Assembly: GCA_903858635.1 (NCBI GenBank)
Contig: CAIOJO010000097.1
Coordinates: forward strand, 1-64,000
Source: an uncultured Telmatospirillum sp.
GTDB lineage: Bacteria; Pseudomonadota; Alphaproteobacteria; Rhodospirillales; Magnetospirillaceae
Length of the DNA: 64,000 nt
Reading direction: 5' to 3'
Part shown: positions 49,705-60,124 of the stretch, one piece after another
How positions within the stretch are numbered: the stretch's first letter is position 1
How the letters are laid out: every line of letters starts with the position of its first letter
Translations under genes and position numbers: made by a program
Notes under the pieces: generated by a model
The model's input: only the letters and a program-made list of their open reading frames with translations
Database searches by the model: none
What the model was told of the DNA's origin: nothing

Positions 49705-50460
49705 CTACAGCTGCCGTTCGATCCGTTCCACACAGTCCCTGACGGCGTCCAGCACCATGGCATCCGCGGTGCGGCCGCCGCCCGCCTCGATGCGCGAGGC
49801 GGAAATGGCGGCAACGACGCGATGCCGCCGGTCGTGCAGCGGCACGGCGATGCAGCGCAGCTGTTCCGTCACCTCTTCGTCGTCCACTGCATATCCGGCC
49901 TCGGCGACCGCGGTCAGTTCGCGGTGCAGGAGGGTGGGGTCGGTGATGGTTCGCGGGGTCAGGGCAACGAAGGGGCCGGCCCCGACGTAGCGGTCGCGCT
50001 CGGCAGCGGGCAGGTGGGCCAGCAGCACTTTGCCGATGGCCGAGCAATAGGCCTCGAGCTGGCAGCCGACCTGAGTGAAGACCGGTGGGCCGCCGCCTTG
50101 CTCCTTGAGCAGATAGGTCACCATCTCGTCTTCGAGCACCCCCAGATGGGCGGTGAGGCGCAGGCGCCTGGCCAGTCGCCGCAGATGGGGCCGGGTGGCG
50201 GCCGCCAGAATGGCTCGCCGGTCGACCCGACGCAGCAGCTCCGCCAGTTCCAAGCCCGGCCCGTAGAAGCCGCGCCCGGCCCGGGCGACCAAGCCGTCGC
50301 GGCAGAGCGCGGCGACCAGGCGATAGGCCGTCGACAACGGAATGTCGAGCTCCCTGGCCTGCTCACGCAACACTCGGCTCGCGCCATCGCGGAGGATGGC
50401 CGAAAACAGCTGCAGCCCCCTCTGCAAAGGGGCCGGGCCGGCCGGATCGCGTTGCGTCAT
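49705..50460 (-). CDS. IclR-family transcriptional regulator
   Basis: The 251-residue protein has a winged helix-turn-helix (residues about 11-67; LDIPLSTAYRLVAALCRDGLVAR) and an IclR effector domain (about 80-250; YCSAIGKVLLAHLPAAERDRYV, EEVTEQLRCIAVPLHDRRHRVVAAIS). It is divergent from the lower-pathway operon beginning at 50561 and shares the 100-base spacer, so it probably controls that operon. The effector is unknown, likely a pathway intermediate or the starting aminophenol. Confidence 0.92.
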   Translation of the reverse strand: MTQRDPAGPAPLQRGLQLFSAILRDGASRVLREQARELDIPLSTAYRLVAALCRDGLVARAGRGFYGPGLELAELLRRVDRRAILAAATRPHLRRLARRLRLTAHLGVLEDEMVTYLLKEQGGGPPVFTQVGCQLEAYCSAIGKVLLAHLPAAERDRYVGAGPFVALTPRTITDPTLLHRELTAVAEAGYAVDDEEVTEQLRCIAVPLHDRRHRVVAAISASRIEAGGGRTADAMVLDAVRDCVERIERQL

Positions 50461-50560: not shown

Positions 50561-51346
50561 ATGTTGTCCCACCGGAACGCCGCGGAACGCCTGCGCAGCG
50601 CCTATCGAAACGGCCCGGTGGCGCCCCTGCGGGACCTTCTCGATCCCACCGACTCGGCCGGCGCCTATGCCGTCCAGGCCATCAATACGGCGTTCTGGCG
50701 CGCCGCCGGACGGTTCATCGTCGGGCGCAAGATCGGCCTGACGGCCAAAACCGTGCAGGCCCAACTCGGGGTCGACCAGCCCGACTATGGCGTGCTGTTC
50801 AACGACATGCAGATCCCGTCGGGCGGCATCTTGCCGTTCGGCCGGCTGCTGCAGGGCAAGGCGGAGGCCGAGGTCGCCCTGCTTCTCGGGCGCGATCTCG
50901 ATTGTCCTGATGCCGGTCCCGACGACGTCGCCGCCGCCACTGACTGCGCGCTGGCGGCCATCGAAATCGTCGACAGCCGCATCGCCGATTGGAAGATCAC
51001 CTTCGCCGACACCGTCGCCGACAACGGCTCTTCGGCCTTCTTCGTCCTGGCGGACGAAGGAAAGCCGCTCGACGGCCTCGACCTCTACAGCTGCGGCATG
51101 GTGCTGGAGGTGAACGGCGAGATTGCTTCGTTGGGGGCCGGGGCGGCCTGTCTCGGCCATCCGCTGAAGGCGGCGGCCTGGCTGGCGCGTACCTTGGCGG
51201 CGGCGGGGCAGCCGCTGCGGGCCGGCGAGGTGGTGCTGACCGGCGCGTTGGGGCCGATGGTCCGGCTGTCGCCGGGCGACCGGGTGGAGGCCAGGATCGG
51301 CGGGCTGGGCTGCCTGAGCTTCCAGGTCGGGGAGGACCGGCAGTGA
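50561..51346 (+). CDS. amnF: 2-oxopent-4-enoate (2-hydroxypentadienoate) hydratase
   Basis: The 261-residue protein has the MhpD/DmpE pattern [63 protein letters not shown] and [16 protein letters not shown]. It hydrates 2-oxopent-4-enoate to 4-hydroxy-2-oxovalerate. The related decarboxylase is encoded at 58938, and the two are told apart by [13 protein letters not shown] here against [13 protein letters not shown] there. It opens the lower-pathway operon; its stop overlaps the next start. Confidence 0.93.
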
Positions 51347-52284
51347 GCGGCAAGGTCAAGGTGGCCATTATCGGTTCGGGCAATATCGGCACCGACCTGA
51401 TGGTCAAGATCATGCGAGGTTCGTCGCTCTTGGAGATGGCGGCGATGGCCGGCATCGACCCCGCCTCGGACGGTCTGGCACGGGCGGCGCGGCTGGGAGT
51501 GGCGGCGTCCGACCAGGGCATCGAAGGCCTGACCCGGCTGTCCTGCTGGCCCCAGATCGGCATCGTCTTCGATGCCACCTCGGCGGCCGCCCATCGGCGC
51601 CACCACGCCGTGGTGACGGCGGCTGGCAAGACCATGATCGACCTGACGCCGGCGGCGATCGGCCCCTATGTGGTGCCGGTGGTCAACGGCGAGCAGTACG
51701 CCGATGCCGGCAACGTCAACATGGTCAGTTGCGGCGGCCAGGCGACCATTCCCATCGTCGCCGCCATTGCGGCCATCGCCCAGGTCCACTACGCCGAGAT
51801 CGTCGCTTCGATCGCGTCGCGTTCGGCCGGCCCGGGGACCCGCGCCAACATCGACGAATTCACCCGGACGACGGCACGGGGCCTGGAAGAGGTGGGGCTG
51901 GCCGACCGTGGCAAGGCGATCATCGTGCTCAATCCAGCCGAGCCGCCGATGGTGATGCGCGACACCGTTTTCACCTTGTCGTCCGGTGCCACCGAACGCG
52001 CCATCGCAATGGCGATCGAGGCGATGGTCGAGAAGGTGCAGGCCTATGTGCCGGGTTACCGCCTCAAGCAGACGGTGCAGTTCGAGCGCTTCGGCGCCAA
52101 CAACCCGGTGACCATTCCCGGGCTCGGCGACTTTGCCGGGGTGAAGAGCAGCATCTTCCTCGAGGTTGAAGGGGCCGGACACTATCTGCCTCGCTATGCC
52201 GGCAACCTCGACATCATGACTTCGGCGGCGCTGGCCACCGCCGAGACCATGGCTCGGCATCGATCATCCAACGGAGCCGCCTGA
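51343..52284 (+). CDS. amnH: Acylating acetaldehyde dehydrogenase
   Basis: The 313-residue protein (MhpF/DmpF family) has the NAD site [11 protein letters not shown] at 10-19, the catalytic Cys130 in [13 protein letters not shown] and [27 protein letters not shown] near the end. It oxidises acetaldehyde to acetyl-CoA and works in a channelled complex with the aldolase encoded next. It starts with GTG overlapping the hydratase stop (GTGA) and ends overlapping the aldolase start (TGATG). Confidence 0.96.
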
Positions 52285-53327
52285 TGGCGTTCGATCCCAC
52301 CCGGAGCAAACTCTATATCCAGGACGTCACCTTGCGTGACGGCATGCACGCCATCCGCCACAGCTACGGCCTCGACACGGTGCGGCAGATCGTCCGAGCC
52401 CTCGACGACGCCAAGGTCGACGCCATCGAGATCGCCCATGGCGACGGCCTCAACGGGTCCAGCTTCAATTATGGTTTCGGCGCACATACCGACTGGGAGT
52501 GGATCGAGGCGGTGGCGGGGGTGGTTCGCCATGCACGGATCGCCACCCTGCTGCTGCCCGGCATCGGCACCATCGAAGACCTGCGCCAGGCCCGCCGGCT
52601 CGGGGTGGCCTCGGTGCGCATCGCCACCCACTGCACCGAGGCCGACATCGCCCGGCAGCATATCGGCGCGGCCCGCGATCTCGGCATGGACACGGTCGGC
52701 TTCCTGATGATGAGCCATATGATCGAGCCCGAGGCGCTGGCCCACCAGGCCAAGCTGATGGAAAGCTATGGCGCCCAATGCATTTATGTGACCGACAGCG
52801 GCGGGGCCCTCGACATGGACGGCTTCCGGGCCCGGCTCGACGCCTATGACCGGGTGCTGAAGCCGGAAACCGAGCGCGGCGTTCACGCCCACAACAACCT
52901 GTCGCTGGGGGTGGCCAACTCGCTGGTGGCGGTGCAGAGCGGCGCCATCCGGGTCGATGCCAGCCTGGCGGGAATGGGGGCCGGCGCCGGCAACGCGGCC
53001 CTCGAGGTGTTCATCGCCGCCGCTGACCGCAAGGGCTGGAAGCACGGCTGCGACCTGTTCAAGCTGATGGACGCGGCCGAGGCAATCCGCCCGTTGCAGG
53101 ACCGGCCGGTGCGGGTCGACCGCGAGACCCTCAGCCTGGGCTACGCCGGCGTCTATTCCAGCTTTCTCCGTCACGCCGAGAAGGCTGGCAAGGATTACGG
53201 CGTCGATGTACGCGACATCCTGGTCGAACTTGGTCGGCGCCGCATGGTCGGGGGGCAGGAGGACATGATCGTCGATGTCGCCCTCGACATTTGTCGCGCC
53301 CGTACCGGCGGCGGGAAGAAACAGTAA
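52284..53327 (+). CDS. amnG: 4-hydroxy-2-oxovalerate aldolase
   Basis: The 347-residue protein (MhpE/DmpG/BphI family) contains [12 protein letters not shown] with Arg18, Asp19 and His22, the metal-binding [13 protein letters not shown], and [15 protein letters not shown]. It cleaves 4-hydroxy-2-oxovalerate to pyruvate and acetaldehyde. The three lower-pathway genes are translationally coupled. A 166-base gap with its own promoter separates it from amnC. Confidence 0.97.
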
Positions 53328-53406
53328 CGGCACTGAGGGCCGCCCGGCCGGAATTTTCGATCCGGACGAAGACTCCTTTTCTCCGCCGGTTCTGACCTTC
53401 GGCTTA

Positions 53407-53436
53407 TTGACCGGAAAAGATGCGGCTTTGTATTAT
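53407..53436 (+). promoter_or_regulatory. Promoter of the upper-pathway (amnC) operon
   Basis: TTGACC (53407-53412) and TATTAT (53431-53436) are spaced by 18 bases in a locally A/T-rich stretch that stands out from its surroundings. The expected start is near 53443, just before the inverted repeat at 53453. Confidence 0.65.
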
Positions 53437-53452
53437 TAAAATATGAGAGTTG

Positions 53453-53471
53453 CTTCTCAATATTTGAGAAG
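53453..53471 (+). promoter_or_regulatory. Perfect 19-bp inverted repeat, candidate operator of the amnC operon
   Basis: CTTCTCAA (53453-53460) and TTGAGAAG (53464-53471) are perfect complements around TAT. Related half-sites flank it: TGAGAG just upstream (53444-53449) and CTCTTC just downstream, so the DNA from 53444 to 53479 is a cluster of alternating GAGAA/TTCTC arms. It lies right after the expected transcription start, where a bound regulator would block the polymerase. The half-site TGAGAAG also occurs at 50478-50484 in the other regulated spacer. Confidence 0.65.
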
Positions 53472-53493
53472 TCCTCTTCCGAGGAGGTGCCGC

Positions 53494-55921
<2,428 letters not shown>

Positions 55922-55957
55922 CGCCGATTGCGCCCCCTCCAGCCGGGAGAATGGTCC

Positions 55958-56770
55958 ATGACCGTCGTTTCCGCCTTCCTGGTCCCCGGTTCGCCGCTGC
56001 CCTATCTGCGCCCCGACAATCCTCCCTGGCGGCCGATCGCCGAGGGCTACGAAGCGGCGGCGCAGCGTCTGAAGGCGTCCGATCCGGATGTGGTGATCGC
56101 CTATTCCACCCAATGGATCGCCGTGCTGGATGCCCTGTGGCAGACCCGCGGGCGGGTCCAGGGCGTGCATGTCGACGAGAACTGGCATGACCTTGGCGAC
56201 CTGCCGTTCGACCTCGCGGTCGACACCCCGCTTGCCATGGCCTGCGTCGCGGGCTGCCGGAGCATCGGGGTCAATGCCAAGAGCGTCGACTACGACGATT
56301 TCCCGATCGACACCGGGACGATCGTCATGTCGGCGCTGCTCAATAAGCAGCGCACGCCCTTGGTGATCACCGCGAACAACCTGTACCACGACCCCGCGGC
56401 GACGGAGCGTCTTGCCAAACTGGCCGTCGACCAGGCGGCCAGCCAAGGCAAGCGGGTCGCCCTGGTGGGCATCGGCGCGCTGTCCGGTTCGATCTTCCGG
56501 GACGAGATCGACATCGCCACGGACAAGATCCGCGATGCCGCCGACGACGCCTGGAATCGCCGGATGCTCGACCTGATGGTTGCCGGGGCGGTGGATGAAT
56601 TGCGCCAATGCGCGCCCGCCTTTGCGCAGGAAGCCAGGGCCGACATGGGCTTCAAGCATTTCTTCTGGCTGTTGGGCGGTCTCGGCGGAGGGTTTGCCGG
56701 GGCCAAGCTGCACGCCTATGGGCCGGTCTACGGCAGCGGCGCCGCCATCGTCGAATTGATCCCCAGCTAG
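55958..56770 (+). CDS. amnA: 2-aminophenol 1,6-dioxygenase alpha (non-catalytic) subunit
   Basis: The 270-residue protein is of the LigB fold but lacks the metal ligands: where the beta subunit has APHPPH it has VPGSPLP, and where beta has HSPHW it has YSTQW. This is the known division of labour in AmnA/AmnB, with alpha stabilising the heterotetramer. The ATG at 55958 is preferred over an in-frame ATG ten codons earlier because AGCCGGGAGA lies upstream and the family starts VVSAFLVPG. Confidence 0.88.
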   Translation: MTVVSAFLVPGSPLPYLRPDNPPWRPIAEGYEAAAQRLKASDPDVVIAYSTQWIAVLDALWQTRGRVQGVHVDENWHDLGDLPFDLAVDTPLAMACVAGCRSIGVNAKSVDYDDFPIDTGTIVMSALLNKQRTPLVITANNLYHDPAATERLAKLAVDQAASQGKRVALVGIGALSGSIFRDEIDIATDKIRDAADDAWNRRMLDLMVAGAVDELRQCAPAFAQEARADMGFKHFFWLLGGLGGGFAGAKLHAYGPVYGSGAAIVELIPS

Positions 56771-56781
56771 GTGGAGCAGGG

Positions 56782-57984
56782 ATGGCGACGCCCAAGAACG
56801 AGTCGATCGGCAAGGCCTTCAAGATCCTTGGCGTGCTCGCCGCGCAAGGCGGCGAAATGAGCGCCACGGCGGTGGCGCGCCGAGTCGGCTGCAGCGTTCC
56901 GACCGTTCATCGCCTTCTGCTCACCCTGGAGGACTGGGGGGCCGTGGCGCGCACCAGCCAGGGCCTGTTCCAGCCCGGGGTGGTGCTGGCCACCCTGGGC
57001 GGCAGCGTCCGCCACAACAAGTTGCTGATCGATGCCGCGCAGCCCGAGTTGGACGGCCTGACGGCGGAGTTCCGAGAGGTCAGCCACCTCCGGGTGTTGA
57101 ACGGCAAGCGGGCGGCCTGTCTTGCCAAGAGCGTGCCGGCCCGCTCGATGCAGGTCGGGTTCGGGACCGAGGGGGGCGTGCCGCTGCATTGCACCGCGTC
57201 GGGCAAGGTATTGCTGGCCGGGCTGCGCCCGGCGGCGCGGCACAAGCTGCTCGATGACCTCGACCTGACCCGCTACACCGACCGGACTCTGACCGCGACC
57301 GACACCCTGGCGGCGCTGCTCGACGAGGTCGAGGTCCAGGGTTACGCCACCGACGACGAGGAGTGGGACGAGGGATTGCGTTGCCTGGCGGTGCCGGTGC
57401 GCGACGGCCAAGGCCAGGTGCTGGCCGCCCTGGTGGTCTCGTACCCGGCCTCGCGCATGGCCCCGGGGCTCGATGCTGCCTACCGGGTGGAGCTCCTGAA
57501 GCGGAGCGGCCGCATCACCCACAAGCTGTTTGGCGAAAGCCGGATCTTTCCCAATCACGCTCGCCCACGGGCCAGTTTTCCGCACATGAAACGCGTCGGC
57601 GACTTCATCTTCATTTCGGGCACCAGTTCGCGACGTCCGGATGACAGCTTCGACGGCGCCGCCGTCGACCGCAACGGCGAGGTGCTCCTCGACATCCGCG
57701 TCCAGACGCGGGCCGTCTGCGACAACATCAAGGACATGCTGGAGGACATCGGCCTTGGCTTGGGCGATGTGGTCGACCTGCAGGCCTATCTGACCGACAT
57801 GAAGGACTACGATGCCTTCAACGAAGTCTATGCGGAATTTTTCGGCGCCGACGGGCCGGCCCGCACCACCGTGGCGGTCAAGCAACTGCCGCATCCCCAT
57901 CAGTTGCTGATGATCAAAGCCATGGCCTACAAGCCCGACCAGTTCGAGCGGAACGGATCGGGGCCGCGGCCGATCAGTCCATGA
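56782..57984 (+). CDS. IclR-family regulator fused to a RidA (aminomuconate deaminase-like) domain
   Basis: One continuous frame of 400 residues joins two folds. Residues 1-65 are an IclR winged helix-turn-helix (VARRVGCSVPTVHRLLLTLEDWG), 75-245 the IclR effector domain (HCTASGKVLLAGL, DEEWDEGLRCLAVPVRD), and 260-390 a RidA domain (FPHMKRVGDFIFISGTSSRRPDD; ARTTVAVKQLPHPH). The RidA half resembles the free deaminase encoded at 59711. It keeps the conserved Arg (Arg361), but the position of RidA Glu120 is Met377, where the free enzyme has Glu126. I infer a regulator whose RidA part binds a pathway imine/enamine without turning it over. It sits inside the operon, 11 bases after amnA. There is no frameshift or repeat at the junction. 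Confidence 0.92.
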   Translation: MATPKNESIGKAFKILGVLAAQGGEMSATAVARRVGCSVPTVHRLLLTLEDWGAVARTSQGLFQPGVVLATLGGSVRHNKLLIDAAQPELDGLTAEFREVSHLRVLNGKRAACLAKSVPARSMQVGFGTEGGVPLHCTASGKVLLAGLRPAARHKLLDDLDLTRYTDRTLTATDTLAALLDEVEVQGYATDDEEWDEGLRCLAVPVRDGQGQVLAALVVSYPASRMAPGLDAAYRVELLKRSGRITHKLFGESRIFPNHARPRASFPHMKRVGDFIFISGTSSRRPDDSFDGAAVDRNGEVLLDIRVQTRAVCDNIKDMLEDIGLGLGDVVDLQAYLTDMKDYDAFNEVYAEFFGADGPARTTVAVKQLPHPHQLLMIKAMAYKPDQFERNGSGPRPISP

Positions 57985-58011
57985 CCAACCTTCACCGCAA
58001 GGACGTCAAAG

Positions 58012-58941
58012 ATGGATGACTATCCGACATCGCTTATCCAGCCTGGTCATGACACCGATTATTCGATTTGGCCGCTGGCATATTGTCAGGCCGACATGCC
58101 GTACGATTTCTTTGGCGGTTCGGGGCCGTTCAGCAATCGGGGCACATGTTGCATTCCGATGATCTACACCCTTCTGGTCGGCGGCGAGGTGGGCGGCAAG
58201 ACGCACATCGCCTTGGTCGATTGCGGCTTCAAGCAGGAGAAGTGGCTGAGGCGCTACGCATTTTCGACCTGGGAGGATCCGCGGACGGTGCTTGGCCGGG
58301 TCGGCTATGCGCCCGAGGATGTCGAGGCGATCCTGGTCACCCACATGCATTTCGATCACATGGGAAATTTCGAAGCCTTCCCCAATGCCAAGCTTTACGT
58401 CCAGCTCGACGAATACGTCGGTTGGGCCCAGGCGGTCAGCCTGGCGCGCGAGCTCGGCGACCAGGAGGAGACCTCGTGGATCTTTTCCTCGTTCGACCCC
58501 GATGACCTGGTGCGCGCCTCCCAAGGCATCGCCGATGGCAAGATCCGTTTCCTGCGTGGGGATGCCGAGGTGTTGCCGGGTATCACCGCCCATCTGGCCA
58601 AGGACTCGCACACCTTCGGCACCCAGTGGTTCCTTGTCCGCACCAGGAACGGCCCCTTCGCTGTGGTCGGGGATACCGTCTACTGGTATTCGAACGTCGA
58701 GATGATGTGGCCACCCGGCTACAACCAGGGCAACGCCTTCAACCAGATCCACGCCTACCAGCGCCTGAAGACCGTGCTGAAAGGGGAGACCCAGAGGATC
58801 ATTCCCGGCCACGACCCGTTGATCTGGGAACGGCACAGCTCATGGGCGCCGCAGAAGATCAACCAGGTCGGCGAGGTCAATCTGGGTCTTGGCGAGGCGT
58901 CGAGGCGGCCGAACCGGCCGAAACTTGGCACGCTGGCATGA
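58012..58941 (+). CDS. Metallo-beta-lactamase-fold hydrolase in the aminophenol operon
   Basis: The 309-residue protein has the dinuclear-metal motif HMHFDHMG (His111, His113, Asp115, His116), a third-site His200 in KDSHTFG, the bridging Asp221 in VVGDTVYW and His267 in IPGHDPLIW. The overall build recalls AttM/AHL-lactonase-like enzymes, but the substrate is not readable. Its place between the fused regulator and amnE, overlapping amnE by four bases, says it serves this pathway, perhaps opening a lactam, ester or carbamate that yields the aminophenol. Confidence 0.85.
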
Positions 58942-59714
58942 ACGGGGAGCTGGAGGGCCTGGCCACGGTGGTCGACGCCGCGGCGCGGAGCCACTGCGCC
59001 ATCGAGCAATTGTCGATCCGCCGGGACCTGTCGGTCGCCGACGCCTATGCGATCCAGCATGCGGCGATTCAACGGCGGATCGACCGCGGCGAGATGCCGG
59101 TGGGGGTCAAACTCGGCTTCACCAGCCGCGAAAAGGCCCTGCAGATGGGCGTGCACGACGTCATCCTCGGGCATTTGACCGACGCCATGCGCCTGGCCGA
59201 CGGCGGCAGGCTGGAACTCGCCGCCTATATTCATCCGCGCATCGAACCGGAGATCGCCTTTCTGCTGAATCGGCCTTTGCGCGGCCAGCTGTCCGAGATC
59301 GAGGCCCTGGCAGCGGTGGCGGCGGTGGCCCCGGCGCTGGAAGTGATCGACAGCCGCTATCGCGACTTCAAGTTCGCGCTCTCCGACGTGATCGCCGACA
59401 ACAGTTCGGCGGCGGCGTTCGTCATCGGTCCATGGATGCCGCCGCCGCTCGACCTGTCCGATCTCGCCATGGCCATGGAGTTCGATGGCCAGGTGGTGCG
59501 GGCCGGGGTCTCCTCGGCCATTCTCGGCCACCCGCTGAAGGCCCTGGCGGCCGCCGCCAGAATCGCCGATGGGCTGGGCGAGACCCTGGAGGAAGGCTGG
59601 ATCGTCATGGCGGGGGCGGCGACGGCGGCGGAGCCGCTTCGTCCGGGACTCACCGTCCGCAACGTCGTCAGCCAGCTTGGCTCGGTCTCGATCCGGGTGG
59701 GAGGTGCAGCATGA
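58938..59714 (+). CDS. amnE: 4-oxalocrotonate decarboxylase
   Basis: The 258-residue protein has the DmpH-type pattern [65 protein letters not shown] and [15 protein letters not shown]. It decarboxylates 4-oxalocrotonate (2-oxohex-3-enedioate) to 2-oxopent-4-enoate, the substrate of the hydratase encoded at 50561. Starts and stops overlap by four bases with both neighbours (ATGA), so three genes are translationally coupled. Confidence 0.92.
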
Positions 59715-60124
59715 AAGGCATCGTCGCCGGGAAGGCATTTCCCCGCGGCCGCTATCCGCATATCCGGCGGGCGGGCGATTTCCTGTTCGTGTCCGGCACT
59801 AGCGCGCGACGCCCCGACAACAGCATCGCCGGCGCCGAGGCCGACGCGATGGGGGGCAGCCGGCTCGACATCGCGGTCCAGACCCGGGCCGCCATCCAGA
59901 ACATCGCCGATATTCTGGCGTCGGAAGGGGCTGGGCTGGGGGACCTGGTCGACGTGACGGTGTTCCTGGTCGATATGAACGACTTCGAGCCCTACAACAA
60001 GGTCTATGCTGAATACTTCGATTACGAGGGGCCGACCCGCACGACCGTGGCGGTCCACCAGTTGCCGCATCCCCATTTGCGGATCGAGATCAAGGCAACG
60101 GCCTACGCTCCGCCTCAGCGCTAG
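59711..60124 (+). CDS. amnD: 2-aminomuconate deaminase (RidA fold)
   Basis: The 137-residue protein has [28 protein letters not shown], Arg110 in GPTRTTVAV and Glu126 in [10 protein letters not shown], the residues matching Arg105 and Glu120 of RidA. It is the AmnD/NbaF type that hydrolyses 2-aminomuconate to 4-oxalocrotonate and ammonia. It ends the operon and shares the bases CTAG with the convergent DUF465 gene, so each strand reads TAG as stop. Confidence 0.92.

Follow-up and report, generated by a model that had tools for sequence, protein, structure and literature searches.

A metallo-beta-lactamase-fold hydrolase in a 2-aminophenol operon as a candidate entry enzyme for benzoxazolinone-type compounds

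We describe a metallo-beta-lactamase-fold hydrolase encoded within a 2-aminophenol (amn) operon of an uncultured Telmatospirillum sp., and propose that it is the entry enzyme of that operon. In the proposed scheme the hydrolase would open a benzoxazolinone-type cyclic carbamate, either 2-benzoxazolinone or a substituted form, to a (2-hydroxyphenyl)carbamate, which would lose CO2 to give 2-aminophenol. The ring would then be cleaved by AmnBA, the semialdehyde oxidised by AmnC and ammonia removed by AmnD, with AmnE, F, G and H carrying the product on to pyruvate and acetyl-CoA. On balance we favour this assignment, if only slightly. Judging from gene content and arrangement, we are fairly confident that the hydrolase works at a stage preceding ring cleavage, on a substrate taken up from outside; that this compound is of the benzoxazolinone type, as analogy with known enzymes suggests, we consider about evenly balanced.

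No earlier description of such a hydrolase in an amn operon was found in the open-licence literature searched. If the assignment is right, the operon would represent a gene set carrying a defence compound of maize, wheat and rye through cleavage of the 2-aminophenol ring into central metabolism. A 2023 study of Actinobacteria noted that nitrobenzene degraders with the 2-aminophenol pathway come mostly from polluted sites, and stated that for the soil and sediment bacteria it examined the natural precursor was unknown (PMC10470539). A putative entry hydrolase that travels with 2-aminophenol pathways and suits benzoxazolinone-type ring compounds makes this question of the natural precursor directly testable.

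The hydrolase gene and its operon

The window, by which we mean the whole stretch of 64,000 nucleotides that was analysed, carries an operon-like run of genes on the plus strand (50561-60124) in the order amnF, amnH, amnG, amnC, amnB, amnA, an IclR-RidA fusion, the hydrolase, amnE and amnD (Table 1). Both AmnB and AmnA have counterparts among solved structures, namely 2-aminophenol and 2-amino-5-chlorophenol 1,6-dioxygenases, and the assignment to the 2-aminophenol pathway is therefore firm; on the strength of its sequence matches the run is a complete amn operon. AmnD, AmnE and AmnF, which score under the curated cut-offs, were identified from their place in the run and from counterparts in the Burkholderia, P. 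poae and B. hinzii clusters, which they match at 49-73%.

Table 1. Coordinates of features in the window and, by L number, at other loci
Feature	Locus	Coordinates	Strand	Details
Second IclR-family regulator, unfused, divergent from operon	Window	49705-50460	-	IclR_C 127 bits (cut-off 24), HTH_IclR 26 bits (cut-off 22)
amnF, 2-oxopent-4-enoate hydratase-like	Window	50561-51346	+	PRK11342 model 299 bits, below cut-off 350
amnH, acetaldehyde dehydrogenase (acetylating)	Window	51343-52284	+	TIGR03215 445 bits, cut-off 282
amnG, 4-hydroxy-2-oxovalerate aldolase	Window	52284-53327	+	TIGR03217 566 bits, cut-off 286
amnC, 2-aminomuconic/2-hydroxymuconic semialdehyde dehydrogenase	Window	53443-54981	+	TIGR03216 822 bits, cut-off 693 (scanned from 53485)
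amnB	Window	55016-55921	+	3vsg_B E 5.7e-167, 8ihg_A E 1.6e-163; 78.7% to CnbCb
amnA, 2-aminophenol 1,6-dioxygenase alpha subunit	Window	55958-56770	+	3vsg_A E 4.5e-98, 8ihg_B E 4e-95
IclR regulator fused to RidA (2-aminomuconate-deaminase-like) domain	Window	56782-57984	+	single ORF
Metallo-beta-lactamase-fold hydrolase	Window	58012-58941	+	309 aa; PF00753
HMHFDHMG metal-binding motif, residues 111-118	Window	58342-58365	+	codons; other ligands H200, D221, H267
amnE, 4-oxalocrotonate (2-oxo-3-hexenedioate) decarboxylase-like	Window	58938-59714	+	TIGR03218 211 bits, below cut-off 350
amnD, RidA-family 2-aminomuconate deaminase-like	Window	59711-60124	+	overlaps amnE by ATGA
IclR-RidA fusion, SZAS-87	L011	5778-6974
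IclR-RidA fusion, N. humi	L015	16060-17220
IclR-RidA fusion, Ensifer	L018	11674-12843
TonB-dependent receptor	L011	7542-9944		one family with the next two, 57-70% identical
TonB-dependent receptor	L013	12485-14953
TonB-dependent receptor	L015	25964-28309
Alpha/beta hydrolases, P. poae	L003	8944-9843, 10966-11946		hormone-sensitive-lipase type
Alpha/beta hydrolases, B. hinzii	L004	10933-11793, 11940-12812		hormone-sensitive-lipase type
Alpha/beta hydrolase	L028	17158-18015		hormone-sensitive-lipase type
Alpha/beta hydrolase	L029	17269-18126		hormone-sensitive-lipase type
Alpha/beta hydrolase	L031	1287-2150		hormone-sensitive-lipase type
Alpha/beta hydrolase	L032	837-1715		hormone-sensitive-lipase type

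The hydrolase matches Pfam PF00753 with an E value of 1.3e-15 (58.3 bits, cut-off 22.7). All seven metal ligands (H111, H113, D115, H116, H200, D221 and H267) are present, as the sequence-only reading had claimed for HMHFDHMG, His200, Asp221 and His267, and they do not vary in an alignment of 13 sequences that comprises the query plus 12 relatives. Y224, three residues past D221, is likewise invariant in all 13 and occupies the aligned place of the tyrosine in AiiA-type lactonases; a tyrosine three residues after the bridging aspartate has a known role in AiiA. The protein thus has the features of a metallo-beta-lactamase-fold dinuclear lactonase/hydrolase, namely HxHxDH, a third histidine, the bridging aspartate, a fourth histidine and the tyrosine. 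Its metal centre is probably dinuclear zinc, and its location probably cytosolic, no signal peptide being seen by eye. An AlphaFold model built with 11 sequences was poor (mean pLDDT 51.9).

The reading frame is an intact gene under selection. It is more than a chance ORF because relatives 57-73% identical to it are found in other lineages, because dN (~0.23) is far below dS (~2.3, near saturation) in the comparison with the relative in MAG SZAS-87 (L011), and because of the solved structure 8x78. A chance ORF or shadow gene was ruled out by the conserved relatives, by dN against dS and by the antisense ORF at 58006-58836 on the minus strand, which has no Pfam match and was taken for the usual GC-rich shadow. 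The TGA stop (58939-58941) overlaps the ATG of amnE as ATGA at 58938-58941, so the four-base overlap noted earlier from the letters is borne out; since ATGA overlaps occur at both junctions, the hydrolase, amnE and amnD are probably translated together.

Linkage to aminophenol genes and exchangeable front ends

A scan of 84,980 species genomes returned 10 relatives of the hydrolase; these were found via exact peptide patterns (20 stretches), so that distant relatives are under-sampled. A plasmid scan gave two records above 60% identity, and a scan of viral contigs no relative. The family is rare: it was found in 1 of 385 Alphaproteobacteria, 1 of 398 Pseudomonas, 1 of 128 Binatota and 1 of 65 Burkholderia genomes, each single positive in these draws being the own or an already known centre genome. 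The near-identical loci of Burkholderia BCC0506 (L002) and B. cenocepacia CMCC(B)23006 (L012) were counted as one lineage, as were six Binatia hydrolases that are more than 90% alike.

Linkage between the hydrolase and amn genes is seen in six lineages of Proteobacteria, namely in the window, in MAG SZAS-87, in Burkholderia, in P. poae, in B. hinzii and on a plasmid of N. humi. In five of the six it lies no more than 4.4 kb from amnB or another core amn gene. The distance to a core gene is at most 2.1 kb in Burkholderia (L002, L012), P. poae (L003) and B. hinzii (L004); in SZAS-87 it is 4.3 kb to amnB, while both an IclR-RidA gene and a RidA gene are closer than that, and on the N. humi plasmid amnG is 7.5 kb and amnB ~21 kb away. 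The flanks fetched around the relatives in six Binatia MAGs (L005-L010) hold no amn gene, and this separation speaks against an entry role. Nonetheless, amnB (at least 75% identity) was found in 10 of 10 relative-bearing genomes searched, including the six Binatia MAGs at 80-82%, and in the Binatia genome behind L008 amnC, amnB and amnA lie ~2.4 Mb from the hydrolase. Counted by lineage, amnB is present in seven of seven that bear the hydrolase, and unlinked in the seventh. The survey of homologue neighbours that had been suggested alongside the original reading thus places the homologues not mainly away from aminophenol genes, with six lineages linked and Binatia, though unlinked, having amnB elsewhere in the genome.

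The gene for the dioxygenase subunit AmnB occurs in 7 of the 385 Alphaproteobacteria and 1 of the 128 Binatota, the centre genome being included in both; these base rates cover the alphaproteobacterial and Binatota draws. For Alphaproteobacteria the hydrolase and amnB counts are taken as one draw of 385 genomes, since the listed handles agree. The sole amnB-bearing Binatota genome also has the hydrolase. At an E value of 1e-30, six of the seven amnB-bearing alphaproteobacterial genomes have no hydrolase. Of the five plasmids with amnB, three (pCNB, P. veronii and Ensifer) have no hydrolase in the neighbourhood and none above 60% identity. A core pathway step was ruled out on these absences. 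The initial view of the hydrolase as an extra outside the described 2-aminophenol pathway agrees with the core LB400 cluster, given as amnRJBACDFEHG in the available text of PMC3790839.

The position of the hydrolase gene varies. In the window it is inside the 3′ part of the operon; Burkholderia has it upstream, B. hinzii and P. poae have it downstream, and in SZAS-87 it is divergent. In a mirror test of only seven lineages, the pairwise identities of the hydrolase and AmnB correlated at r = -0.06, a value equalled or exceeded in 2485 of 5040 permutations; because the identities do not co-vary, the pairing was probably assembled more than once and not inherited as one unit. The hydrolase genes of SZAS-87 and N. 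humi each lie directly 3′ of a TonB-dependent receptor gene that has the same orientation. These two receptors are orthologues, 70% identical over 774 residues, and a further N. humi receptor of the same family (57-60% identical) is encoded just 3′ of amnD. This receptor family is a candidate uptake system for the precursor. Because amnB is often found without the hydrolase, because the position varies and because a TonB receptor gene precedes it in two lineages, the hydrolase would best be read as an exchangeable entry step for an imported compound.

Other genes recur at these loci. In P. poae the hydrolase gene is downstream of an alpha/beta hydrolase gene, one of two at the locus, and of a Phenol_MetA_deg gene, whose product is presumably an outer-membrane type of protein. 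An alpha/beta hydrolase gene is also found near the dioxygenase genes in four of the six alphaproteobacterial genomes that have amnB and no metallo-hydrolase; in a fifth (L030) the fetched stretch ends at the corresponding place. In the one of these genomes that was checked for it, a periplasmic binding protein gene stands beside amnBA. The recurrent alpha/beta hydrolases are perhaps another entry enzyme. The fetched stretches of pCNB and Ensifer hold nitroreductase and amidase genes, and N. humi has a Cyclase-family gene with a weak arylformamidase match. These neighbourhoods suggest that the loci share a 2-aminophenol module whose front end can be exchanged, and the hydrolase would be one such front end.

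Candidate substrates

Benzoxazolinone is the leading candidate because both BxdA and Fusarium MBL1 act on such compounds. Purified BxdA of Microbacterium degrades MBOA while AMPO accumulates, and growth on MBOA is severely impaired in a Sphingobium mutant that lacks three homologues; the reaction proposed is an opening of the ring that gives 2-amino-5-methoxyphenol, and the same study reports bacteria growing with MBOA as their carbon source as well as bxdA-like genes in Burkholderia and Pseudomonas (PMC11297187). This MBOA lactonase of Microbacterium and Sphingobium has an AHL-lactonase-family annotation and a size of ~34 kDa, and acts on a benzoxazolinone via a proposed aminophenol; its gene belongs to a 15-gene bxd cluster. 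An aldehyde dehydrogenase, a VOC protein and also an NAD(P)-dependent oxidoreductase are among the cluster members named, whereas the available text mentions no amn genes (PMC11297187). The ten operon proteins of the window hold an aldehyde dehydrogenase (AmnC), no VOC protein and no oxidoreductase besides AmnC and AmnH. Our hydrolase is likened to BxdA by description, not by sequence, and is not filed as BxdA. CbaA of Pigmentiphaga has a different fold from the metallo-beta-lactamase hydrolase. It is a 6-chloro-benzoxazolinone hydrolase, cited in PMC11297187.

Deletion of MBL1, at the FDB1 locus of Fusarium, stops BOA metabolism (PMC4726666). This fungal enzyme is a metallo-beta-lactamase with HxHxDHxG that is needed for conversion of BOA to 2-aminophenol; amidase and dienelactone hydrolase genes adjoin it, and the 2-aminophenol is malonylated to HPMA, in contrast to the ring cleavage expected of the Amn enzymes (PMC4726666). 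Neither an amidase nor a dienelactone hydrolase is among the ten operon proteins. The hydrolase and its relatives may form a clade of dedicated benzoxazolinone hydrolases, repeatedly plugged into 2-aminophenol operons at varied positions and sometimes with their own TonB receptor, a broader proposal to which we give somewhat less than even weight. Such a clade would amount to a well-defined way for bacteria to take a plant defence chemical via 2-aminophenol ring cleavage to acetyl-CoA, and would offer a natural reason for 2-aminophenol pathways of unknown precursor.

The amn clusters of B. xenovorans LB400 and C. testosteroni pCNB have the core amnBAC and the lower pathway in common with the window; they differ in having a MarR regulator, and no hydrolase of this family was seen in them. 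The word 'lactamase' does not occur in the available text of the LB400 cluster paper (PMC3790839). In Actinobacteria, the ARO microcompartment loci combine the 2-aminophenol pathway with an IclR-type regulator, as does the window, but are encapsulated, and the sole upper-pathway candidate named in the available text, where 'lactamase' has 0 mentions, is HyuB with its partner HyuA (PMC10470539).

The structure 8x78, from P. poae, is 67-68% identical to the hydrolase over 277-280 aligned columns and has the same metal ligands. Its sequence is that of the P. poae relative (290 of 290 compared residues identical, both 306 aa), and the gene encoding it in P. poae DSM 14936 has a complete amn cluster at a distance of 2.1 kb and is accompanied, unlike in the window, by the Phenol_MetA_deg gene and the two alpha/beta hydrolase genes. 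In contrast to the role proposed here, the depositors gave it the title 'Crystal Structure of N-Acyl Homoserine Lactone Lactonase from Pseudomonas poae'; no paper naming the structure was found in the open-licence literature searched. The title would fit a quorum-quenching N-acyl homoserine lactonase merely situated in an amn operon, as would the lactonase-type tyrosine and the best NCBIfam models for the hydrolase, which are AiiA, 4-pyridoxolactonase and AttM. Yet all five curated AHL-lactonase cut-offs are missed widely (AiiA 66 of 375 bits, AttM 54 of 390, AidB 31 of 360, AhlS 28 of 475 and YtnP 23 of 425), and assignment to the AHL lactonases by family was rejected as the main reading on that ground, a rejection that concerns the family and not the activity itself. 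Nor does quorum quenching give any obvious reason for the recurrent linkage to amn genes, and we judge it distinctly unlikely as the function here.

Hydrolysis of some other 2-aminophenol derivative, such as a benzoxazinone lactam, an N-acyl or formyl aminophenol or a synthetic benzoxazolone (chlorzoxazone, a herbicide residue), seems unlikely too. It would be in keeping with the further hydrolases that gather near amn genes in P. poae, B. hinzii, four alphaproteobacterial genomes, N. humi and Ensifer. However, these other enzymes look better suited to open-chain amides or esters, whereas the closest characterised relatives of the metallo-hydrolase fold open rings. The enzyme might instead act after ring cleavage in the repair of a lactonised or cyclised side product, given that pathway intermediates are reactive and that 2-aminomuconic semialdehyde cyclises to picolinic acid (PMC10470539). 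The six alphaproteobacterial genomes and three plasmids with amnB that manage without the hydrolase argue otherwise, as does the outer-membrane receptor gene directly 5′ of it in two lineages, which points to an imported substrate, and we regard such a repair function as very unlikely.

Fusion regulators and other loci

Fusions of an IclR regulator to a RidA domain, as in the window, are also encoded in SZAS-87, N. humi and Ensifer. The four fused RidA domains have a methionine near the C-terminus where the four free AmnD proteins compared have a glutamate, and they keep the arginine of the RTT motif. That glutamate is catalytic in RidA; since it is replaced by methionine, the fused copy may sense 2-aminomuconate instead of deaminating it, and the fusion is possibly an enzyme turned ligand sensor.

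Two aminophenol dioxygenase gene pairs lie ~7 kb apart on the N. humi plasmid (L015 11659-13373 and 20001-21709). The clusters of the alphaproteobacterial genomes and Binatia at L028-L033 and L020 have amnBA, some with amnC, and no match to the lower-pathway genes of the window in the fetched stretches; their end product is perhaps picolinate.

A sister group annotated as 'N-acyl homoserine lactonase family' proteins, with ~26-34% identity to the hydrolase, is found on rhizobial, Sphingobium and Sodalis plasmids, and BxdA-like enzymes may be among its members. By 16S, there was no Sphingobium among the 385 alphaproteobacterial genomes, the best match to Sphingobium 16S being 88-89%. Plasmid pEP1 of Sphingobium sp. 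EP60837 (L036 1-20864) carries two AHL-lactonase-family genes and a further MBL-fold gene, with genes for an aminomethyltransferase, folD, folB, a dioxygenase and maleylacetate reductase nearby; the gene content resembles that of a catabolic cluster acting on some methoxylated aromatic compound, possibly MBOA.
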